The notes under the pieces: model-generated | Told to the model about the DNA's origin: nothing | Seen by the model: the letters and a program-made list of their open reading frames with translations, nothing else | The model's database searches: none | Part shown: positions 4,869 through 59,185 of the stretch, one piece after another | Numbering within the stretch: the first letter of the stretch is position 1 | How the letters are laid out: the number at the start of each line of letters is the position of its first letter | Assembly: GCA_020002185.1 (NCBI GenBank) | Contig: CM034532.1 | Location: forward strand, 52,347,944-52,411,943 | Origin: Paraescarpia echinospica | Lineage: Eukaryota; Annelida; Polychaeta; Sabellida; Siboglinidae | Direction of reading: 5' to 3' | Length of the DNA: 64,000 bases | Position numbers and translations under genes: made by a program

Positions 4869-7127
4869 TTAGTCATTTTCCAAAGAATTAGGCAGTGGAA
4901 TTGCGTACTCTTTGTTGCCAACTGACAGTAAAATGCACTTCTTTGCAATGTGTTCAGCCTTAACAGCTACAGTTGCACCTGTTGTTTGAAATCCATGAAT
5001 ATAGTCAGAGACCACACCAACTTGTTTGTCAGTGAACAAGTGCCGGTTGTCTGACTCACACTTTAACAATAGCACAACACAGCTAACCTGACATGCGCAA
5101 GTACCATGCACACAGTGGCAAGGTAGCTTCATAACAACCAGTTTCTTCACGATGAAGATATTGCCACAGTCACCTTGAATTACATGATCTATTCGTTTCT
5201 TAAGTTTACCATGTCGATAGTCTAGGGATGAAAACATGATTGTACTCATCGAAAAGCGATCATAATGGTCAGCGACAGTGCCTACTTCGATCTGAACTTG
5301 AAAGGAACGCTGAATGGCAAGTCTATCAACCATGGCTATGCGCCCTTACTTTGCTTGCCCATACGTTCTCACTCTTCCGATTGTATGGCTGCTCTTTCTC
5401 ACATACCTACCATGATGAGACAATTTACTGTGCAACTGTGATACCTCTGGGGAAGCATTGGGGATACAGATTCTTTGTAGTGATGGAATGCACCGCATGG
5501 TGAGATACCTGTCTGCTATCTGTATGGCAGTATGCTGTGTTCCATGCTTCATTTTGAGAATTACATGGTTCATGCTTTCAAAATGAAAACATGACTGAGC
5601 CCAAAGCGGTCCCCAGCTTCTTACTGTATCTGGCAAGTGTACCAGCTGGTGAACATTGTAACTAACATGCTCTTTTCCATAGAGGTGAGCTGTATAGATG
5701 ACAAATTTCTCCAGAGCTACCTGAGCCTTTCTGACAGACTCTGGAGATACAATCTCCTGCAGAAGTTGATACACTGCCCAGGACAGCAACATCCAATGTT
5801 TAAGAAATTCACCAGGCAAAACTGCATTCAAAATGAAAGGTGAATAGTACAACAGGAATGAGCGCCACTCAGATGCCTTCCAAAATTTACGCATCTTGAG
5901 GCTTCTTGGGATTCGTGTTACCTCAGCTGGTGGATGGAAATTTAACATGTTATCAACTTCAGCAATATTTGTCCCAATATACCATGGATCATTGTGATAA
6001 GAACTGTCAAACCACATTGTGACAAACTGACGAGTGACACCAAGTAATACGCAATGCATATAGTTAATTGCAAACCCAGTGACTATGTCAAAATTTGGTA
6101 ACAACATCACAGGTGATGGCCCTTTGACACCACGATAAGGCTGTTGGTCATGACCCAATGTGCAATCTTGCAAGTGTGTTTCACTGGTCCTAATCTCAGG
6201 CTCAGGCACTGTGAAAGGGTAGCAATTCACATAACCACGTCCCTTTTCCACACGTTCTCCAGTATGATAACACTTCCAGCACCCATATTTTCCATTAAAC
6301 TGAATGCAGTTCCTGATCATAGGATGTGCTACTGCATCACATGTGGCTGCCACAAAAAACACCCTACTGTGGACATTTGTCTGATCTACAGGATTGACCC
6401 AGTAAAAGCCAGTTGTTGACAATTCAATCAGTTCATCAATTATGGGCTGCATATATGGTTTGACAGGTTTATCACTACCAAACCACAGACCACACATCAG
6501 GATGTTTTCTTTCCTGTCAACATAAGATAATTCATTGACAGTTAGGAAACATGGCCAATATGCAAAATTTGAAGAATGGAATGCCTGTGCACCATCTATG
6601 TTCCACAAAATTGTGAAATCATCGTCACATACCATACCATCCCTCACCAGATCGTGTATACCGTTTCCACTCAAGATATCAGTGTAGTTCTCTTGTGAAC
6701 ACATGGTAGACTTTAACAGCAGCCTATCTGCCACTTGGTGATTTTCAAGTAGATCCTTTAACTGTTCCATTATCGGAAACACAATAAAGAATTTGTTCTC
6801 CTCAATCAAAGTTTTCCTTACAAAGGGTGTGTCACACAAAGGACACTGGCCTTAATTTTCTGTTTTTTCAAGACAGCCTTTGCAGAAGTGACAATAAATG
6901 TAAATGTCATAATGCAAATGCATTGGAAACTCTTTTTTGAATAGGTACTTTGACTTTGGTAGAACACTGGGTAGATGTATGTCAAATAGTCTGCACGAGT
7001 GTTTTAACTGTTCACCGCTGATATTGTATTTCATAATATATTGCAGAAACAACAACAGACTTTGACCTTTTGTGACCTGTGCACCTTCGTAAATGGGCTC
7101 ATGTGGAGGGTGTTGTCCAGCCTGCAA
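4869..7127 (-). pseudogene. CACTA/EnSpm-like (Tnp2-type) transposase with in-frame stops
   Basis: A single reading frame runs from 7127 to 4869 (about 750 codons), interrupted only by TAA codons at 6854-6852 and 5348-5346. The N-terminal part has a CXXC-rich segment (YCHFCKGC ... CPLCD). The centre has the DGAQAFHSSNFAYWPCFL block, NELSYVDR and LMCGLWFG, then GCWKCYHTGERV, NYMHCVLLGVTRQF and, further down, YNVHQLVHLPDTV and FESMNHVILKMKHG. These are the conserved blocks of the Tnp2/Transposase_21-like proteins of animal EnSpm-type transposons. The second stop lies in a gtaagg context, so it could be a splice donor rather than a mutation. The C-terminal 155 codons after it contain a Cys-rich segment. 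Catalytic function would be transposition; as it stands the copy looks inactivated. Confidence 0.75.
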
Positions 7128-13767: not shown

Positions 13768-14940
13768 CTGAGCAATTTTCTGGGCAGACATTCTTACAGA
13801 TTTTGGTCCTTTCTTCCAGAGCAGAATAATCCGTTTCTGAACTCCAAGGCATGCCTGGTGCATGTAATGAAGGGGGAATTGCTTAACCATATTCATTTGT
13901 AGATCGCAAAAGAGAGACACACCATGATGGTGTCCCACTTGAACCTGATTTCTAAATGAATGATCCGTCTGATGATCAAAGTTAATTTCTTGATAGGTCA
14001 TCCTACCTTACCACACACCTTTCTGGTCACATTTGTCACAGCCAAAGTAGCCAGAATATTTGGTCACCTTTACTAGTGACTTTGCAGGTGCATCACAAAC
14101 AACACACCTTAGCTTGACTGGGATTATCCTGTAATCACACTCCAAACCATTGTTCAGGACTTCATTTAAGTCTCGAATTGTATCTTGTAAAAAATCTAAG
14201 TTGCTTGGTTTAGTTTGTCCATATGTGAGTGCCACTACAAACACTGTTACTGGATTCAGGTGAATGGCACACAAAACTGGCCAAGTTGAATATTTTGTAC
14301 TTTTAAACAAGGGCACACCATCTACGTTGATAGAAATTTCTAGTTCTTGAATATTTCTTCTAGTTTCCAAAGAGTAACTGTCCAACTTTGTCAGCAGTTG
14401 TTCTTTCACACCTAAATATATATATTCCATTCTATATTGTAATTGTGTTGGTACATGTTTTGTAGTCTTTAGTAATGTTCTAGCTGTTGCTGGCAAGCTT
14501 TCATGACCATGTGACTTCAACAATTTAAGGAGAGCATCAGTTGCATTGTGTTTTACTTGGAATTCATTCACCCAGGAGGCTACACCTTCTTCCAGTAATA
14601 CATCAGAGTGTTGTCCGATTCCATCATCTGATTCTGAGTCAGAAAACAGGGTGGAATGTTGATCAATGCAATCCCAGTTCCAATCTCCATTCTCATTATC
14701 ACTGTCTGGCTGTGTATTGCTTTGGGAGATGCTGTTTGATTCTTCAAAATCATCGTCATAGTGATTACTATCAGATCCTGTGAAGTTTGAATTTAGACTG
14801 TTGCCTGCAGATGCTTGATCCTGGTCACTTTCATCATCGCTATATATGTGTAAATTTTGATTTACTACAGCGGAGATCGATCGCTTCCTCTTTTTCCACT
14901 TTCTGTTATAGTCATACTTCTTCTTTCTGCCTTCATCCAT
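13768..14940 (-). pseudogene. Tnp2/EnSpm-type transposase, N-terminal two-thirds
   Basis: An ATG at 14940 opens a frame with a basic start ([20 protein letters not shown]), an acidic Ser/Asp-rich region, then the catalytic-region block [20 protein letters not shown]. This is followed by zinc-ribbon-like CVVCDAPA ... [11 protein letters not shown] and [20 protein letters not shown]. One TAA (14010-14008) interrupts the frame exactly where family members have a coding residue between GVW and GRMTYQE. Reading continues to KIAQ, which ends in a perfect donor (CAG followed by gtatag, exon end 13768). The C-terminal transposase exon, with the VHxLxHL-type blocks seen in the copy at 4869-7127, is not found downstream; the DUF4806 gene begins there instead. 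The protein is therefore truncated, and inactive unless spliced to something else. Confidence 0.75.
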
Positions 14941-16105
14941 TCTGGAATTAACAAAATATTACAACTACCAATTTGTTCTGATGTTTTATTTTATGCATAC
15001 TCTTTTGAAAACGAATGAACATAATCTTTATCCCTTAAAATGTTCATCAACTGTGACCTTAATCCTAGCTCCTTCTCTTCGTCCTCAGACATTTCTGATT
15101 AACAAAAATGGGCTGCAAAATGCCAAAAAGCCTTTAATTTAGGCCGAATTTACATTTGTCACTGCCACTGGTTCTGTTATCACTGGTTCTGTTATCACTG
15201 CAGACTTCAGTTAAACAATGACAATTACAAGTCCCAGCACAATAGGCATGAATAGCCATACTATGACTACCGGTACTCTAAATAGTCCTAATCAATGACC
15301 TATGTCCGAGATATCAAAACACACCACCAAGTTGCATGCAGAATTGGACAATTCCCGAAGTTAGGGGATGCAAATAAAGGCAAAGATGATTGTGAACGAT
15401 CGAATGCCAAACCCGAAACAACTGAGAGAGTGAGAACGGGCAGACCACTATTAATTAACCTGATGAACCCTGAATTTCTGGAGGAGCTATTTTTGTTTCA
15501 ACCTATGTGGTTATGTAATGCCTTGTAACATGTAAACTCTTCATCAAAACCCTTACAATATATACATATTCTGAATCACAGAAGATTTATCTTTCCAATG
15601 GTTGTAAAATTATCAATGTTGTGACTGTGTGGCTAATTAGCATATAATTAGTATATGTAAACAATCGCAAAATGAAATACAAAATCTTGTTTTATTGTGT
15701 CACTCATGTACGAATGAAAGCACAAAATGAGACAAGTTTGATACTGCAAGGTAGGCCTATATGTCCTCTATGAGCAGCAAGAAAAATTACAATAATATGT
15801 GCATTTACCTGTGAAATATTACAGTTAGCATGCAAGTATGATGATTTTGGTTGACCGCATGTATAAATATGAATCGCAAAAAATGTTCCCAAAACTGTTT
15901 ACAAAATGCATAGTAGTAAATGTTTTATATGTACATGTAATCTACTGACATATATGTATCGGACAATATATGCATTTACACATAACAGCTTATGAAAAAA
16001 ATATAAAAAATAAGTAGTTTTTGTGAAATGTCAGGTGACAAAAAGTAATGTCAATGTTTATTGACACAGCATGGTTTTGACACAGCAGTGTTCATCACCT
16101 CCAGT

Positions 16106-17567: not shown

Positions 17568-20202
17568 CCTCCAGTATTCCACATTGCTGTGCCACACATA
17601 GAAACAGTTCGAAATGTTCTGTCCACCTTCTGACATCTCTCCGATGCACAGCGGAACGTCACACTGGAGACAGTAATTGTTACTGCACTTGATGTGTGGA
17701 ACTCTGCCTCTAGCACCGGCCGTTCTCTTGCGCAGTTCACTTGCCTTGCGAGCACACACCCTACAGTTTCGATTGCTCTGCTTGCCTGGTTTGTGAACAG
17801 GCATGTGCTGCCCCACATTCATCAGACGTTTGGCTTCGGTCAGACGGGGCCGACCGACACGACGCTGTGTGGCCGATGCCCTGAACGGCGCAACCAGCAG
17901 CTCAGCTAGCTCAAGTCTGAACTGAAGGGCACCCCGCCTCTTCCTGCCAGCTTGCTGGTGGGGCACAACAAAGTTCTCAACAGTGAATGCATTGTGGATG
18001 CACAGTTCGATTCCGTAGAATAGGATTCTTCTGTATGCGCGGAACGTCTTCCGGCCGATACTGTAGTGCTTTATGATGTTGTCGGCCAAGTCCACTCCTC
18101 CCGGTTGTAGTTATGGAGGAGTGGTGGCACGGCAACATCAGTAGCACCAGCAGCAGAGCGGCGGCGTACAGTGCGGTCGGCAGCAGGTGTTTCAGCAGAG
18201 TAGTTGGCCGTGTGGATAGTACTGAGGAAGTAGACCCCCTTGCTGTCAAACCAGCTTTGGGCAAGCAGGCACCCACAGCTCAGGTAGTCGGCGGTGCCTC
18301 GCTCATGTCGTCCACGGCCAAAGTACAGTTCCTTGGGGAATCCTAATCTCCCTTTTCGCACGGTGCCGCATGCGTAGATGTGCCTGTCTTTCAACCATCT
18401 GAACAGCGCTGGAGACGTGTAGAAGTTGTCGACATAGAGATGATGGTTCAGGTTTTCTATGCCGACAACCAGCTGGTGAACGACCCGTGTGCTGAGCGGC
18501 ACGTCTTGTTCAGCGTTGGCGTCTCGTCCTGTGTATACACAGAACCGAGAAACAAAGTTGTTTGCTGCATCTGCCAGCACCCAGCACTTGATGCCGAAAC
18601 GCGCTCGCTTGCTGGGGATGAATTGGCGGAAAGACAGCCTCCCCTTGAAGGGGATCAAACTCTCGTCGATCGAGATTTGGCATCCCATGGTGTATTTTTC
18701 AGCAAAGTTCATGTTGATGTGGTCGATGAAACTGCGAACCTTGTACAGTTTATCATTGTCTGGGTTGCCGAGGGCTTCATCGTTCACGTGAAGATAACGC
18801 AATATCTGGCCAAAGCGATCTCTCGACATGACGTTGCTGAAGCCAGGTGCGTTGGTAAGCGGATGACTTGTTTCCCAGTGCATGGCCAACCTAGGCATAC
18901 GAGCAATGCCTGTCACAATCGTGAGTCCGAAAAACGCTTGCATCTCGGGACGATCGACTGGCTGCCACACTCCCTTGTGATGCCCGGCCAGTCTCTTACT
19001 TACAGTGTTCCTGTTGGTCATCTCAACAAGCAACTCCCACATGGCATCATCCAAGAACAGGTCAAGGCAGTCTTTTGGTGTGGCCGTCTGAGGTAAGCGG
19101 ACACGCAGTCCTTGCGTGCCTCCATAGGGGGGGACCTGATGCTGCACATCCCTTTTCTCCCACACGGCAGCTGCAGCGGCAGCACCAGGCGCAGCTCAAC
19201 CCATCACTCCACGAGCCTGCACGGCACGTCCTCGCACCTGCCCTCGTCCTCGCACCTGCCCTGAAGTGCTAGGCTGTGGTTCATCACTGCTATCTACAAG
19301 AGAAAGTAGTTTATAATGTTATATTTGTATGTACAGTGGCTGTATACATTAATGTTTGCCTAATATTCATGTTTGTATAACTATTTCAGTAAATTTATTC
19401 ACTTTTCATAGCACGAAAACAAATTGAATAATAATAATCAGAACATATATAAGCCTAAAATAAAGGCTACAATATATATATATAATATATATATACATAT
19501 AATGAATATAAAATAGGCAATAAAAATACAATAGCAGTGAGTTTTTGACTAGGTGTCAACAATAACAACAAGTAATTGACCTACATATGCGCCACGTAGG
19601 CGTGGCCGTGTTGACTTTTCTATTCATCACGAATCCATTATATCATTCAGTGAATCATTGTCAACAACCGAGTCGGTGTTTACTAAAATTGTCTCTATGA
19701 TTTGATGTGATTTTGGCTTATTGAAATTGTACATTATAATAAACTATACGTAGCAGTGGTTGGCAATTCATCAATTGTACTCTCGTTGTTTACATGTAAT
19801 TTTCACTAAAATCGCACCTGTAAGAACAAAATTTACCTGAATCTTCGTTTCCCGATGACCCAGATTGCACACTGACATCGACGTCGCTGTCCTGTCCGCT
19901 ACTAATATCGTTTACATCCGAATTATCGGATGCATAGCCCATCATATACAACGCCCGCTCATAGTCATCGTAGTCACGAATTCTAAAATGTTGACGAGAC
20001 ATCCCCAACTTTCAAAAAATCGCAAAAATACTAATAATTCACGGATCAAATTGAGTAATGGCTGAAAATGTCCGCGAATGTGTCGTCGTCATCCGAGCAC
20101 CAACGGCATAGCCAATGCTAACGAAAGTGGCGCCATACGACGATCAATATGAACACTATACGCCAACACCGAAATTTCGGTGTTCAGGGTCCATGAGGTT
20201 AA

Positions 20203-43215: not shown

Positions 43216-46200
43216 GAGGACAAATATGATGCTGTTTGCAAGGCGCTGAAGGAAGGAGACATTGCATGGCAGAAGAGAGGACCACCCAACAAGCGGTCAG
43301 TATACAGTATACTTACTTTTACTTTGTACTGATACTCCTTGGACCTGGGTATATCAAAAGCTACCATGCTATGGGGTCCAACTGAATATATTTGCTGGAC
43401 TACCAGAGCAGGTCTGCAGACTGAGTGACTTTGTGTACTAAGCCTTCAGGCAATTAGGTTTATTATTACACTGTACTATGTTTTAGAGACCACTTTTAAT
43501 TATGTATTTGTTTGCTTTATGAATGCTGAATGTGCACACAAATTTTCCTTCTTTTTATTGTAATCCCTTCATATTCTCCCAATGTATGGGGTTGTACTGA
43601 CTGTATCCCTGAGGTTGTACTGACTGTATCCATGGGGTTATACTGACTGTATCCATGGGGTTATACTGACTGTATCACTGGGGTTGTACTGCCTGTATCC
43701 ATGGGGTTGTACTGCCTGTATCCCTGAGGTTGTACTGACTGTATCCATGGGGTTATACTGACTGTATCACTGGGGTTGTACTGCCTGTATCCCTGGGATT
43801 GTATTGACTGTATCCCTGGGGTTGTACTGACTGTATCCCTAGATTGTAGTAACTATGAGAGGACAGGGGACGTCTCCCTTCCCTCTGTACTCTCCCAGGG
43901 TATGGGGTTGTACTGACTGTCTCCCTAGGTTGTAGTAACTATGAGAGGACAGGGGACGTCTCCCTTCCCTCTGTACTCTCCCAGGGTATGGGGTTGTACT
44001 GACTATCTCCCTAGGTTGTAGTAACTATGAGAGGACAGGGGACGTCTCCCTTCCCTCTGTACTCTCCCAGGGTATGGGGTTGTACTGACTGTCTCCCTAG
44101 GTTGTAGTAACTATGAGAGGACAGGGGACGTCTCCCTTCCCTCTGTACTCTCCCAGGGAATGGGGTTGTACTGACTGTATCCCTGGGGTTGTACTGACTG
44201 TATCCCTGGGGTTGTTCTGACTGTATCCCTGGGGTTGTTCTGACTGTATCCCTAGATTGTAGGAACTATGAGAGGACAGGGGACGTCTCCCTTCCCTCTG
44301 TACTCTCCCAGGGTGTGGGGTTGTAATGACTGTATCCATGAGCTTCTACTGACTGTATCCCTAGGTTGTAGGAACTATGAGAGGACAGGGGACGTCTCCC
44401 TTCCCTCTGTACTCTCCCAGGGTGTGGGGTTGTACTGACTGTATCCATGAGCTTCTACTGACTGTATCCCTAGGTTGTAGGAACTATGAGAGGACAGGGG
44501 ACGTCTCCCTTCCCTCTGTACTCTCCCAGGGTGTGGGGTTGTACTGACTGTATCCATGAGCTTCTACTGACTGTATCCCTAGGTTGTAGGAACTATGAGA
44601 GGACAGGGGATGTCTCCCTTCCCTCTGTACTCTCCCAGGGTGTGGGGTTGTACTGACTGTATCCATGAGCTTCTACTGACTGTATCCCTAGGTTGTAGGA
44701 ACTATGAGAGGACAGGGGACGTCTCCCTTCCCTCTGTACTCTCCCAGGGTGTGGGGTTGTACTGACTGTATCCATGAGCTTCTACTGACTGTATCCCTAG
44801 GTTGTAGGAACTATGAGAGGACAAGGGACGTCTCCCTTCCCTCTGTACTCTCCCAGTGTAATAATAATAGTAATAATAAAATTCTTTAGCTCCAGTATCT
44901 TTGAAAATCGAGCTCCGTGGCACAGCAAGACCAAAGCATTACGCAATCTCATCCCTGTATCATCCCTGTATAATCCCTGTATCATCCCTGTATCATCTGA
45001 CTGTATCCCTGGGGTTGTAGGAACTATGAGAAAGCAGGAGAAGTCGCCCTACCCCCTATACTCTCCCAGTGTGTGAGGTTGTACTGACTGTATCCCTGGG
45101 GTTGTAGGAACTATGAGAAAGCAGGAGAAGTCGCCCTACCCCCTATACTCTCCCAGTGTGTGAGGTTGTACTGACTGTATCCCTGGGGTTGTAGGAACTA
45201 TGAGAAAGCAGGAGAAGTCGCCCTACCCCCTATACTCTCCCAGTGTATGCAACTGCTGCAGTCAGAAGCAATGTTCCTCATCCTGTCAAACCTCACCGGC
45301 CTCACCCTCCACCCACTCGCGACCCAGCTCTCTGCCTCGTCCAGCGATACGGAGACAGCGCTGCCACCTGATGACAGCGGGGAGGGCAGCAGCACGGGGC
45401 GGTGCAAGCCGAGAACAAAGAGGCGGAAACTGAGCAGCGACTGCGACGCAGGCGACGGAGACTGTCACATGACTCAAGGTGATACCTGGTGGAGCGTAGA
45501 GGAAACGTCAGTGCTCAGATGTGGTGGTTGCTGGAAATGTAGTCTAAGAATTCATTGAAATTAAATGTGGCAAGTGTAGCAATGTTTTTGTCGTTGAAAC
45601 TGTAAATGAGATTGCTGTGTGGAGTTTGTTGTCAGTGCATCGGCTCAGTTGTAGCATTTGGCATGTATCGTTTAATCTTATTTTATAGTCATATATATAT
45701 ATAACCTGCCACAGCGAACCAGGTATTAAGTGATACAGGCCTATTCTGCACACGAGCCAAAAATAGCTGTCTTGGTCATGTCACATTTCAGATTTTCGCA
45801 GATCTGTCAATGTCCAACTCGACAACTAATCCCAAACTAATAAAATGCCTGCATTTGTGAACCGACGTATTAAAAAAACATAGACAATACATGTCAAAAT
45901 GAGCGCATTTCTCAAAATGTCACTTAAAATCATATGTAGTCGCTGAATTCAGTGTCTGCTGTTACAGACGCCGACTCGAGTGCGCGCTGTAGACTAGAGT
46001 TGAGGCGGTGGACACATGGCTGTTACACGCTGCTCCACGACACAGACAATGAGGCGTGTGAACTCGCTCTCGACGCTATGTTCTTTTGCCTCTGTAAAGG
46101 TGGGTCATAACATGTTCTTAACTGTGATGTTAGTGTAGATGTTAGATGTAAGGACATCACAACTCTTGTATTCATGAATAATGTGCTGCCTATGACTTCA

Positions 46201-49200
46201 TGAAGAGAAAGTAAAGTTCTGTATGCAAGATGTTCTTACTGGGAGCCAGGCCACTTTAGTCACATGACTGTTCACTAGGTGTTAACACATGTTACAGTGT
46301 CACCTATTTACAGTCACCCACATAACTACATCATTAATCATTTTGTATTGATATAGGTGCTGTCACCATGCATCAAGATGTGTAGCCCTAGTTACACACT
46401 TCGAAGAAATGTTTACATTACTGATGATGGTACATTCTCTTGGTGGTACCTTTGGTAATGGTACCATTGGTGGTACTCTCTATGGCTGGCACTAAAATGT
46501 GCATATAGCTCCACTTAATGAAAGGTAAAGGTACTTTGTGTAAATGGTATGACTGATTGTCCCATGATGTCTAGCTGTGTACCTGTATTGAGGAGATGTG
46601 CCTGACAGAGTGTTGTCATTTCAGGTTGGCAGGCAGACTACGGCGGTCACACTACCTACATTGCTAAGGGGGAAGACGAGGAGGTGGGTTTACACACTGG
46701 ACACTGTCATGCACATGGACATTGTTAGACATGCGGGACACTGTTAGGCACACTGGACACGGTCATACACACGGACACTGTCAAATGCACGGGACACTGT
46801 TAAATACACGGGACACTGTCAAACACATGGGACACTGTCAAACAAATAGGACACTGTCAAACACGGGACACTGTCAAGCACATGGACACTGTCAAACACG
46901 TGGGTATTGTCAAACACACGGGACAGTGTCAAACACACGGGACACTGTCAAGCACATGGACACTGTCAAACACGCTGGACACTGACAAACACACGGGACA
47001 CTGTCAAAGACATATGAACTCTGTCAAACACGGGACACTGTCAAACACATGGACACTTTCAAACACACAGGACAGTGTCAAGCACATGGACAATGTCAAA
47101 CACACGAGACACTATTAAATACACGGGACACTGTCAAACACACGGGACACTGTCAAACACACGGAACACTGTCAAGCACACGGGACACTGTCAAACACAT
47201 GGACACTGCCAAACACATGGGTACTGTCAAACAAATAGGACACTGTCAAACACACGGGACACTGTCAAACAAATAGGACACTGTCAAACACACGGGACAC
47301 TGTCAAGCACATGGACACTGTCAAACACGTGGGTATTGTCAAACACATAGACATTGTCAAATACACGGGACACTGTCAAGCACATGGACACTGTCAAACA
47401 CGCTGGACACTGTCAAACACACGGGACGCTGTCAAAGACATGGACACTGTCAAACACACGGGACAGTGTCAAGCACATGGACAATGTCAAAAACACAAGA
47501 CACTGTTAAATACACGGGACACTGTCAAACACACGGGACACTGTCAAACACACGGAACACTGTCAAGCACACGGGACACTGTCAAACACATGGACACTGC
47601 CAAACACATGGGTACTGTCAAACAAATAGGACACTGTCAAACACACGGGACACTGTCAAGCACATGGACACTGTCAAACACATGGGTATTGTCAAACACA
47701 TAGACATTGTCAAATACACGGGACACTGTCAAGCACATGGACACTGTCAAACACGCTGGACACTGTCAAACACACGGGACGCTGTCAAAGACATGGACAC
47801 TGTCAAACACACGGGACAGTGTCAAGCACATGGACAATGTCAAAAACACAAGACACTGTTAAATATACGGGACACTGTCAAACACACGAAACACTGTCAA
47901 GCACACGGACACTGTCAAACACACGGGACACTGTCAAACACACGGGACACTGCCAAACACATGGGTACTGTCAAACAAATAGGACACTGTCAAACACATG
48001 GGACACTGTCAAACACATGGGACACTGTCAAACACACGGGACACTGTCAAGCACATGGACACTGTCAAACATATGGGACTCTGTCAAACACATGGGATAC
48101 TGTCAAACACATGGGACACTGTCAAACACACGGGACACTGTCAAACACATGGGACACTGTCAAAACATGGGACACTGTCAAACACACGGGACCCTGTGAA
48201 ACACACGGGACTCTGTCAAACACATGGGACTCTGTCAAACACATGGGATACTGTCAAACACACGGGACACTGTCAAACACACGGGACCGTGTCAAACACA
48301 CGGGACACTGTCAAGCACATGGACACTGTCAAACACGCTGGACACTGTCAAACACACGGGACACTGTCAAAGACATATGAACACTGTCAAACACGGGACA
48401 CTGTCAAACACATGGACACTGTCAAACACATGGACACTTTCAAACACACGGACAGTGTCAAGCACATGGACAATGTCAAACACATGAGACACTATTAAAT
48501 ACACGGGACACTGTCAAACACACGGAACGCTGTCAAGCACACGGGACACTGTCAAACACACGGGACACTGTCAAACACACGGGACACTGTCAAGCACATG
48601 GACACTGCCAAACACATGGGTACTGTCAAACAATTAGGACACTGTCAAACACGGGACACTGTCAAGCACATGGACACTGTCAAACACATGGGTATTGTCA
48701 AACACATAGACATTGTCAAATACACGGGACACTGTCAAGCACATGGACACTGTCAAACACGCTGGACACTGTCAAACACACGGGACGCTGTCAAAGACAT
48801 GGACACTATCAAACACACGGGACAGTGTCAAGCACATGGACAATGTCAAACACACAAGACACTGTTAAATACACGGGACACTGTCAAACACACGAAACAC
48901 TGTCATGCACACGGACACTGTCAAACACACAGGACACTGTCAAACACACGGGACACTGCCAAACACATGGGTACTGTCAAACAAATAGGACACTGTCAAA
49001 CACATGGGACACTGTCAAACACACGGGACACTGTCAAGCACATGGACACTGTCAAACACATGGACACTGTCAAACACATTGGACACTGTCAAACACATGG
49101 GACACTGTCAAAGACATGGACACTGTTAAACACACGGGACACTGTCAAACACACGGGACAGTGTCAAGCACATGGACAATGTCAACACATGGGACACTGT

Positions 49201-51075
49201 CAAAGACATGGACACTGTCAAAGACATGGGACACTGTCAAACATATGAACACTATCAAACACGGGGCACTGTCAAACACATGGGACACTGTCAAACACAT
49301 GGGACACTGTCAAAGACATGGACACTGTCAAAGACATGGGACACTATCAGACACATAGACACTGTCAGACACATGGACACTGTCAGACACATGAGACACT
49401 GTCAAACACATGGGACACTGTCAAACATATGGGACACTGTCAAAAACATGGACACTGTCAAACACATGGGATACTGTCAAACATGGGACACTGTCAAACA
49501 CACGAGATACTGTCCAACACACGGGACACTGTCCAACACACGGGACACTGTCAAACACATAGGACACTGTCAAACACATGGGACACTGTCAAACACATGG
49601 GACACTGTTAAACACATGGACACTGTCAGACATATGGTACACTGTCAAATACATGGACATTGTCAAAAACATGGACCCTGTCAAACACATGGGATACTGT
49701 CAAACATATGGGATACTGTCAAACAAAAGGGACACTTGTCAAACACACGGGACACTGTCAAACACATGGGACATTGTCAAAACATGGGACACTGTCAAAA
49801 CATGGGACCCTGTCAAACACACGGGACTCTGTCAAACACATGGGACTCTGTCAAACACACGGGACACTGTCAAACATACGGGACACTGTCAAACACATGG
49901 GACACTGTCAAACACACGGGACCCTGTGAAACACATGGGACTCTGTCAAACATATGGGACTCTGTCAAACACATGGGATACTGTCAAACACACGGAAAGT
50001 AAGTGGTGAACCAGTGGTGGTGCTTTAGTTTTACCAAGAAGAAAACTGTTTATAGTAATAAAATATTACAAAGTGTGTGTATTCATTCATCGCCTGCTGC
50101 CTGCTAACCAGGGTAATGCACTAGTCAGACTCATCCAATGTGTCAGATAAATAACAACAGAAATTTTATTGTAGACATTTTATGGCAAAAAACACAGAAT
50201 GCCTGACATTCAACAACATAAGATGCATTGTAGTGAAAGCCATCTGTGCAAAGGTCTACTGGTATTTATAGAAGTGTGATTAATTACTAGGTTAAAAGAG
50301 GTATCATGAATCATACAGATATAGGTAATTGAACCAGGCTGTCAAAGTACTGAAAAAAGACTCTTAAAATTACTCCTTAAATTAGTTTTTATGCTTCTCA
50401 CATTTCAGATTCATTTCACCAAAAAGCAAACCTGCCAAATATGTTCTATGACGTGCTAGTTCATTTGTGCATATATTTTTTCATTTTGGTGAAATTAATA
50501 AAGTATAAAAAGGTAAAGGTAATTCTTATATCGCACAGTATCCAGTCTTCAGGACTGCTCAAAGTGCTTTACATTTTTCTCCCTGGCAGACCTGCTCAAT
50601 TGAACACCATTAATTTTGACCCAGTGAGTTCAAAACTAGTTATAGGATTGAGTTGGGAAATGCTATTTAGCTAAATGTGTCAGTCATGTCAACTATGTTG
50701 TTGCTTACAGCGGCTGACAGTGTCGGTCATGTCAACTATGTTGTTGCTTACAGCTGCTGACGATATCAGTCATGTCAACTCCGTCATTCCTTTTACCTGC
50801 TGACAGTGTCAGTCATGTTAACTATGTCATTGTTTACAGCTTCCGACAGTGTCAGTCATGTTAGTTATGTTGTTGCTTACAGCTGCTGACGGTGTCAGTC
50901 ATGTCAACTCTGTCATTGCTTACAGCTGCTGACAGTGAGTCCGGCAGACAACTCACTGGCTCTTGTCTACCGAGACAAGGAAACACTCCGTTTTGTGAAA
51001 CACATCAATCACATGATCAAAGACATGTCAGCTGACGCAACCTTCTATGACTTCTCAGCCGTCTACTTTGAATGA
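43216..51075 (+). CDS. OGFOD1: OGFOD1 (prolyl 3-hydroxylase of ribosomal uS12), 3' five exons
   Basis: Five plus-strand exons with consensus splice sites join in phase to TGA at 51073: 43216-43295, 45195-45478, 45968-46099, 46625-46683 and 50926-51075. They encode [40 protein letters not shown] followed by an acidic low-complexity linker; [54 protein letters not shown]; and an end [10 protein letters not shown]. This matches the C-terminal half (Ofd1 C-terminal domain) of OGFOD1/Tpa1. That enzyme is a nuclear 2-oxoglutarate/Fe(II) dioxygenase that hydroxylates a proline of ribosomal protein uS12 (RPS23) and affects translation termination and stress granules. The catalytic N-terminal domain would be encoded upstream and was not found. 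The introns carry unusual tandem arrays (43.6-45.2, 46.7-50.0 and 50.7-50.9 kb), two of which include exon starts. No frameshift is seen in the assembled exons, so the gene looks functional. Confidence 0.93.
43570..45250 (+). repeat. Tandem array of an OGFOD1 splice-acceptor/exon-start junction
   Basis: Thirteen copies of a module consisting of intron end (GACTGTATCCCTAGGTTGTAG) plus the first 49-50 bases of the OGFOD1 exon that truly begins at 45195. Copies start near 43851, 43937, 44023, 44109, 44263, 44372, 44481, 44590, 44699, 44808, 45020, 45108 and 45195. Spacing is 86, then 109, then 88 bp. Between and before them (43590-43850, 44160-44260) the intron part alone is repeated every 23-24 bp. 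Copies 1-10 would encode [16 protein letters not shown] (last residues as in the exon); copies 11-13 encode [16 protein letters not shown]. Only the last copy continues into the full exon. Confidence 0.92.
45700..45870. repeat. Dispersed repeat, copy 1
   Basis: About 170 bp (AACCAGGTATTAAGTG, GCCTATTCTGC, AGCCAAAAATA) resemble 53310-53520 in the same orientation. It lies in an OGFOD1 intron and the family is unrecognised. Confidence 0.55.
46690..49999. repeat. 3.3-kb minisatellite in an OGFOD1 intron
   Basis: About 175 copies of an 18-19-bp unit, consensus CACTGTCAAACACACGGGA with ACATGG and AAGCAC variants. The 18- and 19-bp versions alternate, and larger blocks (for example about 340-350 bp seen around 47075-47420, 47466-47770 and 47819 on) are re-duplicated, showing higher-order structure. 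It fills the intron that starts at donor 46684. Long apparent reading frames here are products of the repeat, not genes. Confidence 0.95.
50000..50667. other. Rest of the last OGFOD1 intron
   Basis: Unique AT-rich sequence between the minisatellite and the acceptor repeats; nothing else seen. Confidence 0.5.
50668..50937 (+). repeat. Tandem array of the acceptor/exon-start junction of the last OGFOD1 exon
   Basis: About six copies of a 43-bp unit: GTCAGTCATGTCAACTATGT, then TGTTGCTTACAG, then CTGCTGACAGTG. The last 12 bases equal the first 12 bases of the terminal exon (50926-50937). Acceptor-like TACAG occurs at about 50706, 50749, 50835, 50878 and 50921. The copy near 50798 has lost the AG. 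Confidence 0.88.
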
Positions 51076-55116: not shown

Positions 55117-56022
55117 TGGCTTGTCGCTGTATGTATTTGCTTGTAGCTGTATGTATTTGCTTGTCGCTGTATGTATTTGCTTGTAGCTGTATGTATTTGC
55201 TTGTAGCTGTATGTATTTGCTTGTAGCTGTATGTATTTGCTTGTAGCTGTATGTATTTGCTTGTAGCTGTATGTATTTGCTTGTCGCTGTATGTATTTGC
55301 TTGTAGCTGTATGTATTTGCTTGTAGCTGTATGTATTTGCTTGTAGCTGTATGTATTTGCTTGTAGCTGTATGTATTTGCTTGTAGCTGTATGTATTTGC
55401 TTGTAGCTGTATGTATTTGCTTGTAGCTGTATGTATTTGCTTGTAGCTGTATGTATTTGCTTGTAGCTGTATGTATTTGCTTGTAGCTGTATGTATTTGC
55501 TTGTAGCTGTATGTATTTGCTTGTAGCTGTGTGTATTTGCTTGTAGCTGTGTGTATTTGCTTGTAGCTGTATGTATTTGCTTGTAGCTGTATGTATTTGC
55601 TTGTAGCTGTATGTATTTGCTTGTAGCTGTATGTATTTGCTTGTAGCTGTATGTATTTGCTTGTAGCTGTATGTATTTGCTTGTAGCTGTATGTATTTGC
55701 TTGTAGCTGTATGTATTTGCTTGTAGCTGTATGTATTTGCTTGTAGCTGTATGTATTTGCTTGTAGCTGTATGTATTTGCTTGTCGCTGTATGTATTTGC
55801 TTGTAGCTGTATGTATTTGCTTGTAGCTGTATGTATTTGCTTGTAGCTGTATGTATTTGCTTGTAGCTGTATGTATTTGCTTGTAGCTGTATGTATTTGC
55901 TTGTAGCTGTATGTATTTGCTTGTAGCTGTATGTATTTGCTTGTAACTGTATGTATTTGCTTGTAGCTGTATGTATTTGCTTGTCGCTGTATGTATTTGC
56001 TTGTAGCTGTATGTATTTGCAG
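55117..56022. repeat. 20-bp minisatellite, about 45 copies
   Basis: Very homogeneous array of TTGTAGCTGTATGTATTTGC, with occasional TTGTCGCTG and GTGTATTT variants. Because 20 is not divisible by three and the unit has no stop on the minus strand, all three minus frames stay open and give the same 20-residue repeat. These frames are not credible genes. Confidence 0.97.
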
Positions 56023-56985: not shown

Positions 56986-58113
56986 TCAGTGCAGTGAGAA
57001 GCTAAGACATATCATGATCACAAGTCCGATGAACAGAAACAACACCTTCAGCAGTCGGTTCCGTGGTTCGTTCATCTCGGCTGGGAGAATCTCGACAAAG
57101 ACGACGTAGACGAATGTTCCCGCAGCCACACCCTGTATGAGCACTGAAGCCAGCTCCCCTGCCTTATTGTGCACGATCCCGATAGTCATGCCGACGTACA
57201 TGCCGACTGGGATCATGGCACTAAGTGTGAGAGACAGCTTGAGGACATTGGCCATGCGGAAGTGTTGCTTCGCGAGACTGATACCCATTGCGAAGGCAAC
57301 AAACACCTCATGTAGGAGGACGCCGATGAAGAGGTTCGTCAGTTGATGGACGTCCTCCTGTAGGCCCAGGGCCAGACCCTCAAACACTGAGTGGATGCTG
57401 AGGGCAGCCAGCAGTAGCAGGCAGCGCAGGCCAATGTTGTCCTCTACAATGTCCAAGAGGTGAGAGTGACCCTCGTGGCCTGATTCGCAATGGGTGTGGC
57501 CATTGCTCGAGTGGGCATGGCCATTGACAGAATGAGCGTGGCCATTGCTGGAATGGGTGTCGCCATTGATGGAATGGGCGTGGGTGTTTTCCCTTGGAAT
57601 GTGTCCATTTTCTGTGGGTGTATGTTCACTGCCTTTGTCGGAAAATGACGCAGCTGTGTCATTATGTTCAGCTGGGTGTCCATCTAGCAGAGCCACATTT
57701 TCCAGACTTGTCACCATCACCTCCCCTTCACTGCTGTTGTTAGGGACCGTGGTGTAGTCGGTCTCTGGGTGTCGCTGACACTTGTGCACCAAGACATCCA
57801 CGAGCAGGACAAAGAAGAATCCGACCATAAGAACAAGCTGTGTCAGGCGACAACTCATGTCCGCACTGAGGTGGGCCAACTCGAGCACTCGCGAGAACTT
57901 GGCCTCGATGTAAGGCACCATCTGTAGGTTGCACGTGCCCAGGAAGATCCCCCCGGAGAGACAGTTGCAGAGGGAGACAGCCTGTTGCACCCGCTGGCTG
58001 AGCACCACCTGGGAGTCCTTGGGGATGAGGCGGGAGGGCAGGAGGGTGAAGAGGAGTGTAGACAGGAAGATGACCACGCTGAAGATGACCTGCAGCAACG
58101 TCACCGTCTCCAT
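56986..58113 (-). CDS. SLC39/ZIP1-3-type zinc transporter
   Basis: A single coding exon of 375 codons runs from METVTLLQVIFSVVIF (ATG at 58113) to TGA at 56986. An acceptor (ttcttcttccag, exon start 58152) lies just upstream, so 5' UTR exons are expected beyond. About eight hydrophobic segments are visible, with the long cytosolic loop between TM3 and TM4. The metal site is in TM4 (LSIHSVFEGLALGLQ) and TM5 (GVLLHEVFVAFAMGISL), the signature of ZIP subfamily II (ZIP1/2/3). These proteins import Zn2+ across the plasma membrane. The loop holds a His-rich stretch of four to five SNGHAHS-like repeats and then GHEGHSH, a likely zinc-sensing region. Length matches family norms and no defects are seen. 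It converges with OGFOD1. Confidence 0.93.
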   Translation of the reverse strand: METVTLLQVIFSVVIFLSTLLFTLLPSRLIPKDSQVVLSQRVQQAVSLCNCLSGGIFLGTCNLQMVPYIEAKFSRVLELAHLSADMSCRLTQLVLMVGFFFVLLVDVLVHKCQRHPETDYTTVPNNSSEGEVMVTSLENVALLDGHPAEHNDTAASFSDKGSEHTPTENGHIPRENTHAHSINGDTHSSNGHAHSVNGHAHSSNGHTHCESGHEGHSHLLDIVEDNIGLRCLLLLAALSIHSVFEGLALGLQEDVHQLTNLFIGVLLHEVFVAFAMGISLAKQHFRMANVLKLSLTLSAMIPVGMYVGMTIGIVHNKAGELASVLIQGVAAGTFVYVVFVEILPAEMNEPRNRLLKVLFLFIGLVIMICLSFSLH

Positions 58114-58159
58114 GGCGATGGACAGTTTGGTTGGAAACACAACGAAGACACTGGAAGAA

Positions 58160-59185
58160 GAAAAATAATTTAATGAGAATAATAAATTCTTTAAAATATT
58201 ATTTATATTAATATGCTAAATTTGGAGCTTTGTAAGTGCATCGCCAGGTCTAATCTGCCCATCTGGTGGTGCAGTAATGAGGTAATTGGTAGATTAACTG
58301 AGCTACATATGAACACGCAACTAATCTGCCAATTATGATGACAACCTTAGTGCTATATTAGAATGGCATGTAACGTTGGACATGTATCAGCTATTTCAGA
58401 CATGTAGCTGGCTTTATGATTTAAAGTGATTGTTTGAGAATTTTAATCTATGTAATGTTTGCATTTGTTAAGTAATATGATTATTTCGTGTAATTCTATA
58501 CCTTTATTTCATTAGAATTATGTTTATTTAATCACTAATGACACTGACAATACATCGAAAAAAATAACTCGGCATACGCAGTTTCTAGTTTGGGCCCCGC
58601 CTACACTATCCACATAAGGCATGCTCATGAATATTCAGTACCGCCTGTCAGAATTCAATTTTTATGGTGCAAGAAATACGTGTTCCACGTCATCAACAAG
58701 TGTGTGTTTTGATCAGCTACCGCCATGCAAGTAAACCATGGCTGAGGTGGGTCAATTTCTCAAGAGAACACATGGGCCGGCTGCCGTATATGTGTGATTC
58801 TGTAAAGAAGAGTCAAAAGGGAAAGGGACAATTTGTGGAACCAACGCTGAATCAACACAGCGGCAGCCCACGACCAATGGGTTTGTTTAAAAGAAAACTA
58901 CCATCTTCCACTCACGAATTCGTCGCTTTGTTTTTGTAGGACAACTTGGTAGTCTACAGTCAACATATTTTGGCTAATAAGTTTTTTAAATGTTAATAAG
59001 AGTGACAAATGATGTCAAAATTTGCTGCAGTTGTGTACATGGTACGTGTTGACTGGTACTATCGGGAGTATTGCACTGAGGTGTCAAATTTAGGAATAAA
59101 TATGGTTATAACAGCAAAATGGAGGTGTGTCCGGATTAATTTATTGTACTAGTCTGGAGCAACTTTCCGAAAAAGTGAACCCTGT
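58160..59185. other. Upstream region of the ZIP gene
   Basis: Intron/5' flank. A 91-codon plus frame at 58664-58939 is open but unrecognised and probably chance. Confidence 0.35.

Follow-up and report, generated by a model that had tools for sequence, protein, structure and literature searches.

A mirage minisatellite at a splice acceptor of the OGFOD1 gene in the tubeworm Paraescarpia echinospica

Mirage minisatellites were named in amphioxus, where tandem units cross an exon/intron boundary and many of them carry splice signals; examples have been described in Adh3, troponin C, the globins BflGb6 and BflGb9, and PGBD5 (PMC3087553, PMC3902484). In BflGb6 the 3' end of an intron and the 5' part of an exon are duplicated, one haplotype having 6 units and another 3 (PMC3087553, PMC3902484), and regular splicing of amphioxus mirages is reported despite the repeats (PMC3087553). 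Boundary-spanning repeats are also known under other names, in human CBS (PMC2630376). There, 844ins68 duplicates the intron 7/exon 8 junction and the distal copy is strongly preferred (the source text says 'donor', though that junction is an acceptor), and a 31-bp VNTR of 16-21 repeats bears a name, c.1444_1467+7, that spans an exon end and an intron start (PMC2630376). The literature searched returned nothing on the mechanism of the 844ins68 preference, and no mirage outside the cephalochordates under that name, a result that holds for the terms used.

The P. echinospica genome comprises 1.09 Gb in 14 pseudochromosomes (PMC8476170). The window (the whole 64,000-nt stretch of DNA that was analysed) contains the 3' exons of an OGFOD1 gene, in which an acceptor and the start of its exon are repeated 13 times. 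The features of the locus are listed below; a slash marks a splice junction.

43216..43295, + strand: OGFOD1 coding exon 5' of the array, ending ...NKR in phase 2, donor GCG/GTCAGT (exon stitching)
43587..43840, + strand: 23-nt units like TGGGGTTGTACTGACTGTATCCC, eleven of them, equal to the branch-point-like/pyrimidine part of the boundary unit (TRF period 23, unit scan)
43817..44193, + strand: class A 86-nt units, acceptors 43850, 43936, 44022 and 44108, first exon base T
44207..44856, + strand: class A 109-nt units (86 + 23), acceptors 44263, 44372, 44481, 44590, 44699 and 44808
44949..44997, + strand: 11-nt array TCATCCCTGTA, separating class A from class B (TRF)
44997..45246, + strand: class B 87-nt units, decoys 45021 and 45108 and the real acceptor 45195
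45195..45478, + strand: real OGFOD1 exon, the first 49 nt of which are the amplified part, donor AAG/GTGATA
45968..46099, + strand: OGFOD1 coding exon
46625..46683, + strand: OGFOD1 coding exon, donor GAG/GTGGGT
46692..49995, + strand: 19-nt minisatellite of 3.3 kb and about 177 units, filling most of the next OGFOD1 intron and beginning 9 nt past the exon end at 46683 (TRF)
50677..50937, + strand: second OGFOD1 acceptor mirage, 43-nt unit ...gcttacag/CTGCTGACA, 6 copies including the real one (TRF, copy listing)
50926..51075, + strand: last OGFOD1 coding exon, with stop

The boundary array (43850-45243) lies in the intron between the exons at 43216-43295 and 45195-45478. Each of its 13 tandem copies holds the acceptor and the first 16 codons of the downstream exon, the unit running from CTGAC to TTGTAG and on through 49 exon nucleotides (G or T, then the 16 codons). 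The first exon bases lie at 43850, 43936, 44022, 44108, 44263, 44372 and 44481 (copies 1-7) and at 44590, 44699, 44808, 45021, 45108 and 45195 (copies 8-13). The acceptor AG is intact in all 13 copies, as is CTGAC, a branch-point-like motif that lies 19-20 nt 5' of the acceptor. The first exon base is T in four copies and G in nine, and it follows ...CG in every one and is therefore silent. The outermost copy, 45195, is the sole one continuous with the exon. A first-pass annotation of this DNA had described the 13-fold amplification of the acceptor and 16 codons, the invariant AG, the silent first base, the joining of the last copy alone to the exon and two sequence classes, and all of these were borne out.

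The two classes, reading NYERTGDV... (A, ten copies in 86- and 109-nt units) and NYEKAGEV... (B, three copies in 87-nt units, of which the real exon is the last), differ at 9 of 48 exon nucleotides, or at 10 for the class A copy at 44808, which reads NYERTRDV.... By comparison of the copies, the three on the exon side form the separate class; the exon parts are identical in all three class B copies and in eight of the ten class A copies, a pattern that would fit homogenisation within the cluster with the boundary copies set apart. Between the classes, 6 of the 9 nucleotide differences are nonsynonymous by hand count, which is near the neutral expectation, and the amino-acid changes are not claimed as a sign of translation. 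The first two class B units are 100% identical over 87 nt. The 23 nt by which the 109-nt units are longer (109 = 86 + 23) repeat the branch-point/pyrimidine sub-unit once more; this sub-unit is also amplified alone in the 11-copy array at 43587-43840. Every class A copy contains an extra AG, 12 nt 3' of the branch-point-like A, that is absent from the three class B copies. When the 87-nt class B unit was searched against the 1.08-Gb assembly, with simple repeats and very common words skipped by the search, all 11 reported matches fell inside the array, and a dispersed repeat as the nature of the unit was not supported.

By its sequence anatomy, this feature is a mirage minisatellite: an exon/intron boundary lies within the unit, splice signals are present in the copies (AG in 13/13), and the outermost copy alone joins the exon. 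It shares with the amphioxus mirages, as characterized in the sources cited above, the tandem units across a boundary and the splice signals in many of them. It differs from them in its annelid host, its 13 copies, the mixture of 86-, 109- and 87-nt units with a separate array of the 23-nt sub-unit, the extra AG in every class A decoy, and the presence of three acceptor mirages in one gene. Human CBS 844ins68 resembles the array in its duplicated acceptor junction, but is a single 68-bp duplication and not an array; the CBS 31-bp VNTR also crosses a boundary, but on the donor side, and is not called a mirage in the relevant part of PMC2630376. The earlier interpretation thus stood as regards the gene, the anatomy, the classes, the silent base and the poison read-through, but not in treating the locus as a unique oddity, as amphioxus mirages had already been described. 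What is new is an annelid example of the class that recurs in several genes, with two further acceptor mirages in OGFOD1, a donor mirage in a second gene, a probable acceptor mirage in a third, and an orthologue model in Ridgeia that translates similar copies.

The identity of the gene, on which the first-pass annotation had staked its reading of the exon at 45195, is firm by sequence comparison: it is the OGFOD1 orthologue of a siboglinid tubeworm. The five window exons, when stitched, encode an open C-terminal half of 234 residues, with a match to human OGFOD1 (4nhx, E 1.6e-64) and an Ofd1_CTDD domain (2.7e-23). Residues 53-538 of Lineus OGFOD1 give ten collinear matches over about 91 kb (C2:52307683-52399015). 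Ofd1_CTDD and the N-terminal oxygenase exons are therefore present in the order of a TPA1-type prolyl hydroxylase, and about 12 OGFOD1 coding exons were located by tblastn in the window and the upstream locus L013. The possibility that the window holds a C-terminal gene fragment was rejected once N-terminal exons had been placed about 76-84 kb 5' of the exon at 43216. Lineus residues 1-52 were not located in the assembly search, and among the 12 candidates scored with the Lineus query none at E 10 placed OGFOD1 elsewhere in the 1.08-Gb assembly. One OGFOD1 intron, between C2:52315021 of the assembly and window position 43216, measures about 76 kb. The models from Ridgeia and Lamellibrachia start near the exon after this intron and both lack the oxygenase domain; they are perhaps split models.

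The consequences of using an upstream copy were examined by reading each one. Read-through from all 12 upstream acceptors leads to a stop, as had been claimed, and use of the extra class A AG leads to an immediate stop in 10/10 copies; the upstream acceptors could thus act as decoy or poison sites. The suggestion that the GT dinucleotides following the copies could serve as donors for 50-nt micro-exons fared less well. A GT stands at the 50-nt place after nine of the ten class A copies, but not after copy 44108, and every 50- and 52-nt cassette tested breaks the frame. The donors were scored with a human matrix, and the scores serve only as a guide; on this matrix eight of the class A 50-nt donors score 6.0-6.1 and the one after 44808 scores 0.9. 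The suggestion had also overlooked an in-frame option in class B, in which the best donor, CA/GTGTGT, closes a 48-nt cassette and outscores the 50-nt donor (4.15 against 2.04 on the human matrix). Such 48-nt CA/GT cassettes keep the frame at 44808, 45021 and 45108, with a donor at 44808 that scores below zero on the same matrix, and those at 45021 and 45108 preserve the full frame whether used alone or together. Nine of the ten class A copies have no GT at the 48-nt place. A recursive (ratchet) splice site consists of YAG directly before a strong donor, GTRAGT; the class A copies read CTAG/GTTGTA (8/10) or CTAG/ATTGTA (2/10), without GTRAGT.

How a cell would choose the correct acceptor among 13 had been raised as a real question, and it proved sharper than was claimed. 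An identical stretch of 163 nt (111 of intron and 52 of exon) is shared by decoy 45108 and the real site, and one of 76 nt, 52 of which are exon, by decoy 45021 and the real site; around the junction, the class A decoys match the real site over no more than 19 consecutive nucleotides. The junction itself therefore cannot mark the real site, and whatever decides the choice has to be located past exon base 52 or farther upstream. Local acceptor signals do not favour the real site, with pyrimidines at 10 of 17 positions against 10-11 in the decoys and a branch distance of 20 nt against 19-20. Concealment of the decoys by RNA structure was not supported: among seven folded pieces, the six decoy pieces gave z of +0.4 to +1.3 and the real site -1.1, and two longer stretches gave +2.3 and -0.5, with no special structure in the decoy pieces.

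Donor strength was considered on the same human matrix, by which two real exons score 5.42 and 6.65, the latter being the array exon. The best class B decoy donor (4.15) is weaker than this on that scale, but the eight class A donors at 6.0-6.1 are close to the real ones, so that skipping is not accounted for by poor decoy donors alone, and what distinguishes the last copy is not its acceptor. Splice-site choice can follow exon definition, and the likeliest cue for the last copy would be the full exon with its donor. Two decoys that match a real acceptor over 163 and 76 nt make the locus a natural test of splice choice.

The nearest proteins are those of Ridgeia piscesae and Lamellibrachia satsuma, and the three are about equally distant (87-88%). 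The host is accordingly a siboglinid, probably a vestimentiferan, and amphioxus was rejected as the source of the DNA. In the Ridgeia model P0001 the peptide that links the repeats looks like a translation of intronic sequence from a boundary unit. The joint in this peptide, SQCMGLY, occurs exactly in the P. echinospica array only at the start (IFSQCMGLY, 43571), a short match with an E value of 0.37; other copies have SQGMGLY or SQGVGL (class A) or SQCVRLY (class B decoys). Six residues tell the classes apart; the Ridgeia exon agrees with class B at three of them (K, A, E) and with class A at the other three (S, S, V), as would be expected if each class had changed separately from a Ridgeia-like ancestor. 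The class A copies thus keep ancestral-looking codons. One founding duplication may be common to both species, judged on the Ridgeia side from protein, and an independent origin is also possible. A broader scheme, in which an old vestimentiferan duplication of this junction would serve as an exon nursery, its copies preserving earlier exon versions, exchanging sequence with the exon and in some species being translated as 16-residue repeats through the in-frame CA/GTGTGT donor or by read-through, is speculative and improbable.

The reading that we consider highly probable is that the array is an acceptor-side mirage minisatellite kept as a tolerated by-product, with the last acceptor used and no regulatory role needed. 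An early tandem duplication across the 3' end of the intron and the start of the exon would have expanded by slippage or unequal exchange into units of three sizes (86, 109 and 87 nt) and the 23-nt sub-unit. Splicing would most likely use the last acceptor, because only that copy precedes the exon body and its donor, and the other copies would be tolerated for that reason. Products of upstream copies meet an early stop or, for 50- and 52-nt cassettes, have a broken frame, and so would be destroyed or harmless; the array would then persist as a by-product of a minisatellite-rich genome. It is unlikely, by comparison, that some copies are real cassette exons, each class B segment from TAG/G to CA/GTGTGT adding 16 in-frame residues, so that OGFOD1 forms would carry between one and three repeats. 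The frame-preserving cassettes at 45021 and 45108 are consistent with such exons, as is the Ridgeia model P0001, in which NYEKAREVSFHFLSQ appears two times ahead of the start of the exon, in one case read directly across the intronic portion of a unit, and which belongs to an annotation that drew on RNA-seq among its evidence (PMC9921365). However, the class A copies lack the 48-nt GT in all but the below-zero case at 44808, the class B donor reaches just 4.15 on the human matrix, and the segment is not repeated in the Lamellibrachia satsuma model. Such gene models can also mislead, since an amphioxus PGBD5 model annotated mirage repeats as exon without EST or mRNA support (PMC3902484).

A regulatory poison array, in which decoys would compete with the real site and control how much OGFOD1 is made, by way of nonsense-mediated decay whose extent depends on copy number, is a decidedly unlikely alternative to the tolerated by-product. 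The stops reached from all 12 upstream acceptors and from the extra class A AG count in its favour; yet arrays also occur in other OGFOD1 introns and in other genes, and there is thus no sign that this intron has a role of its own. That the repeat was expanded by the assembly and is absent from the DNA is very improbable. The exact copy number of arrays of this kind is hard to assemble, but the copies are not clones, having three unit sizes, two classes and single-copy variants; the independent Ridgeia model bears copies of the same boundary, and similar structures occur elsewhere in the assembly.

Within OGFOD1, the second acceptor mirage (50677-50937) keeps the AG in 5 of 6 copies. The third, upstream of the window, has eight copies of a 52-nt unit (L013:17-417), with the AG at the exact place in six, or in seven if one copy with a 2-nt shift is counted. 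In the 9.3 kb that surround the 5' exons of the gene, TRF arrays account for about 40% of the sequence. A 36-nt array of 46 units (L013:1708-3351) begins about 12 nt past another OGFOD1 donor; arrays abutting donors recur in the gene.

Mirages were also sought at 60 other exon loci, the best 30 of 135 Pkinase and the best 30 of 149 WD40 profile matches, by a self-match test that took in the domain match with flanks of 60 nt, a span that misses mirages at exon edges further out. Six of the 60 loci gave a self-match, which yielded one donor mirage and one probable acceptor mirage; L060, L067 and L075 were left uncounted after inspection of their sequences, and L054 solely because its match is 16 nt. 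The donor mirage lies in a WD40 gene (L074), whose peptide we take to resemble BRWD/PHIP, and has seven CAG/GTGAGT donors. The probable acceptor mirage lies in a kinase gene (L026), presumably PAK-like, with 27 acceptor-like copies, 25 of which have the AG, and a diverged exon part.

Arrays occupy 14% of the window by TRF, and overlap with splice junctions is by itself unsurprising. Two of nine OGFOD1 junctions fall inside arrays against 1.27 expected by circular shift (P = 0.29), with P = 0.17 for five acceptors and 0.32 when the arrays are placed at random, and the overlap was not supported as a sign of selection. The boundary array itself is far beyond chance. Mirages may simply arise in a minisatellite-rich genome whenever an array begins at the border of an exon and gene function is preserved by one of the copies.

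Elsewhere in the window, a 20-nt array of 45 units lies at 55119-56020 and is 98% matched. A 21-nt array (57489-57583) lies inside a ZIP transporter frame (56986-58215, minus strand) and encodes a His-rich repeat of NGHAHS type; the best match of this transporter, judged by its locus tag (NP493_517), is on the Ridgeia OGFOD1 scaffold. Transposase-like frames are present at 18071-19195, 5346-6851 and 14008-14958 (minus strand), with one match to DDE_Tnp_1_7 (2.7e-76) and two to Transposase_21 that are weak and fall short of the curated cut-off.
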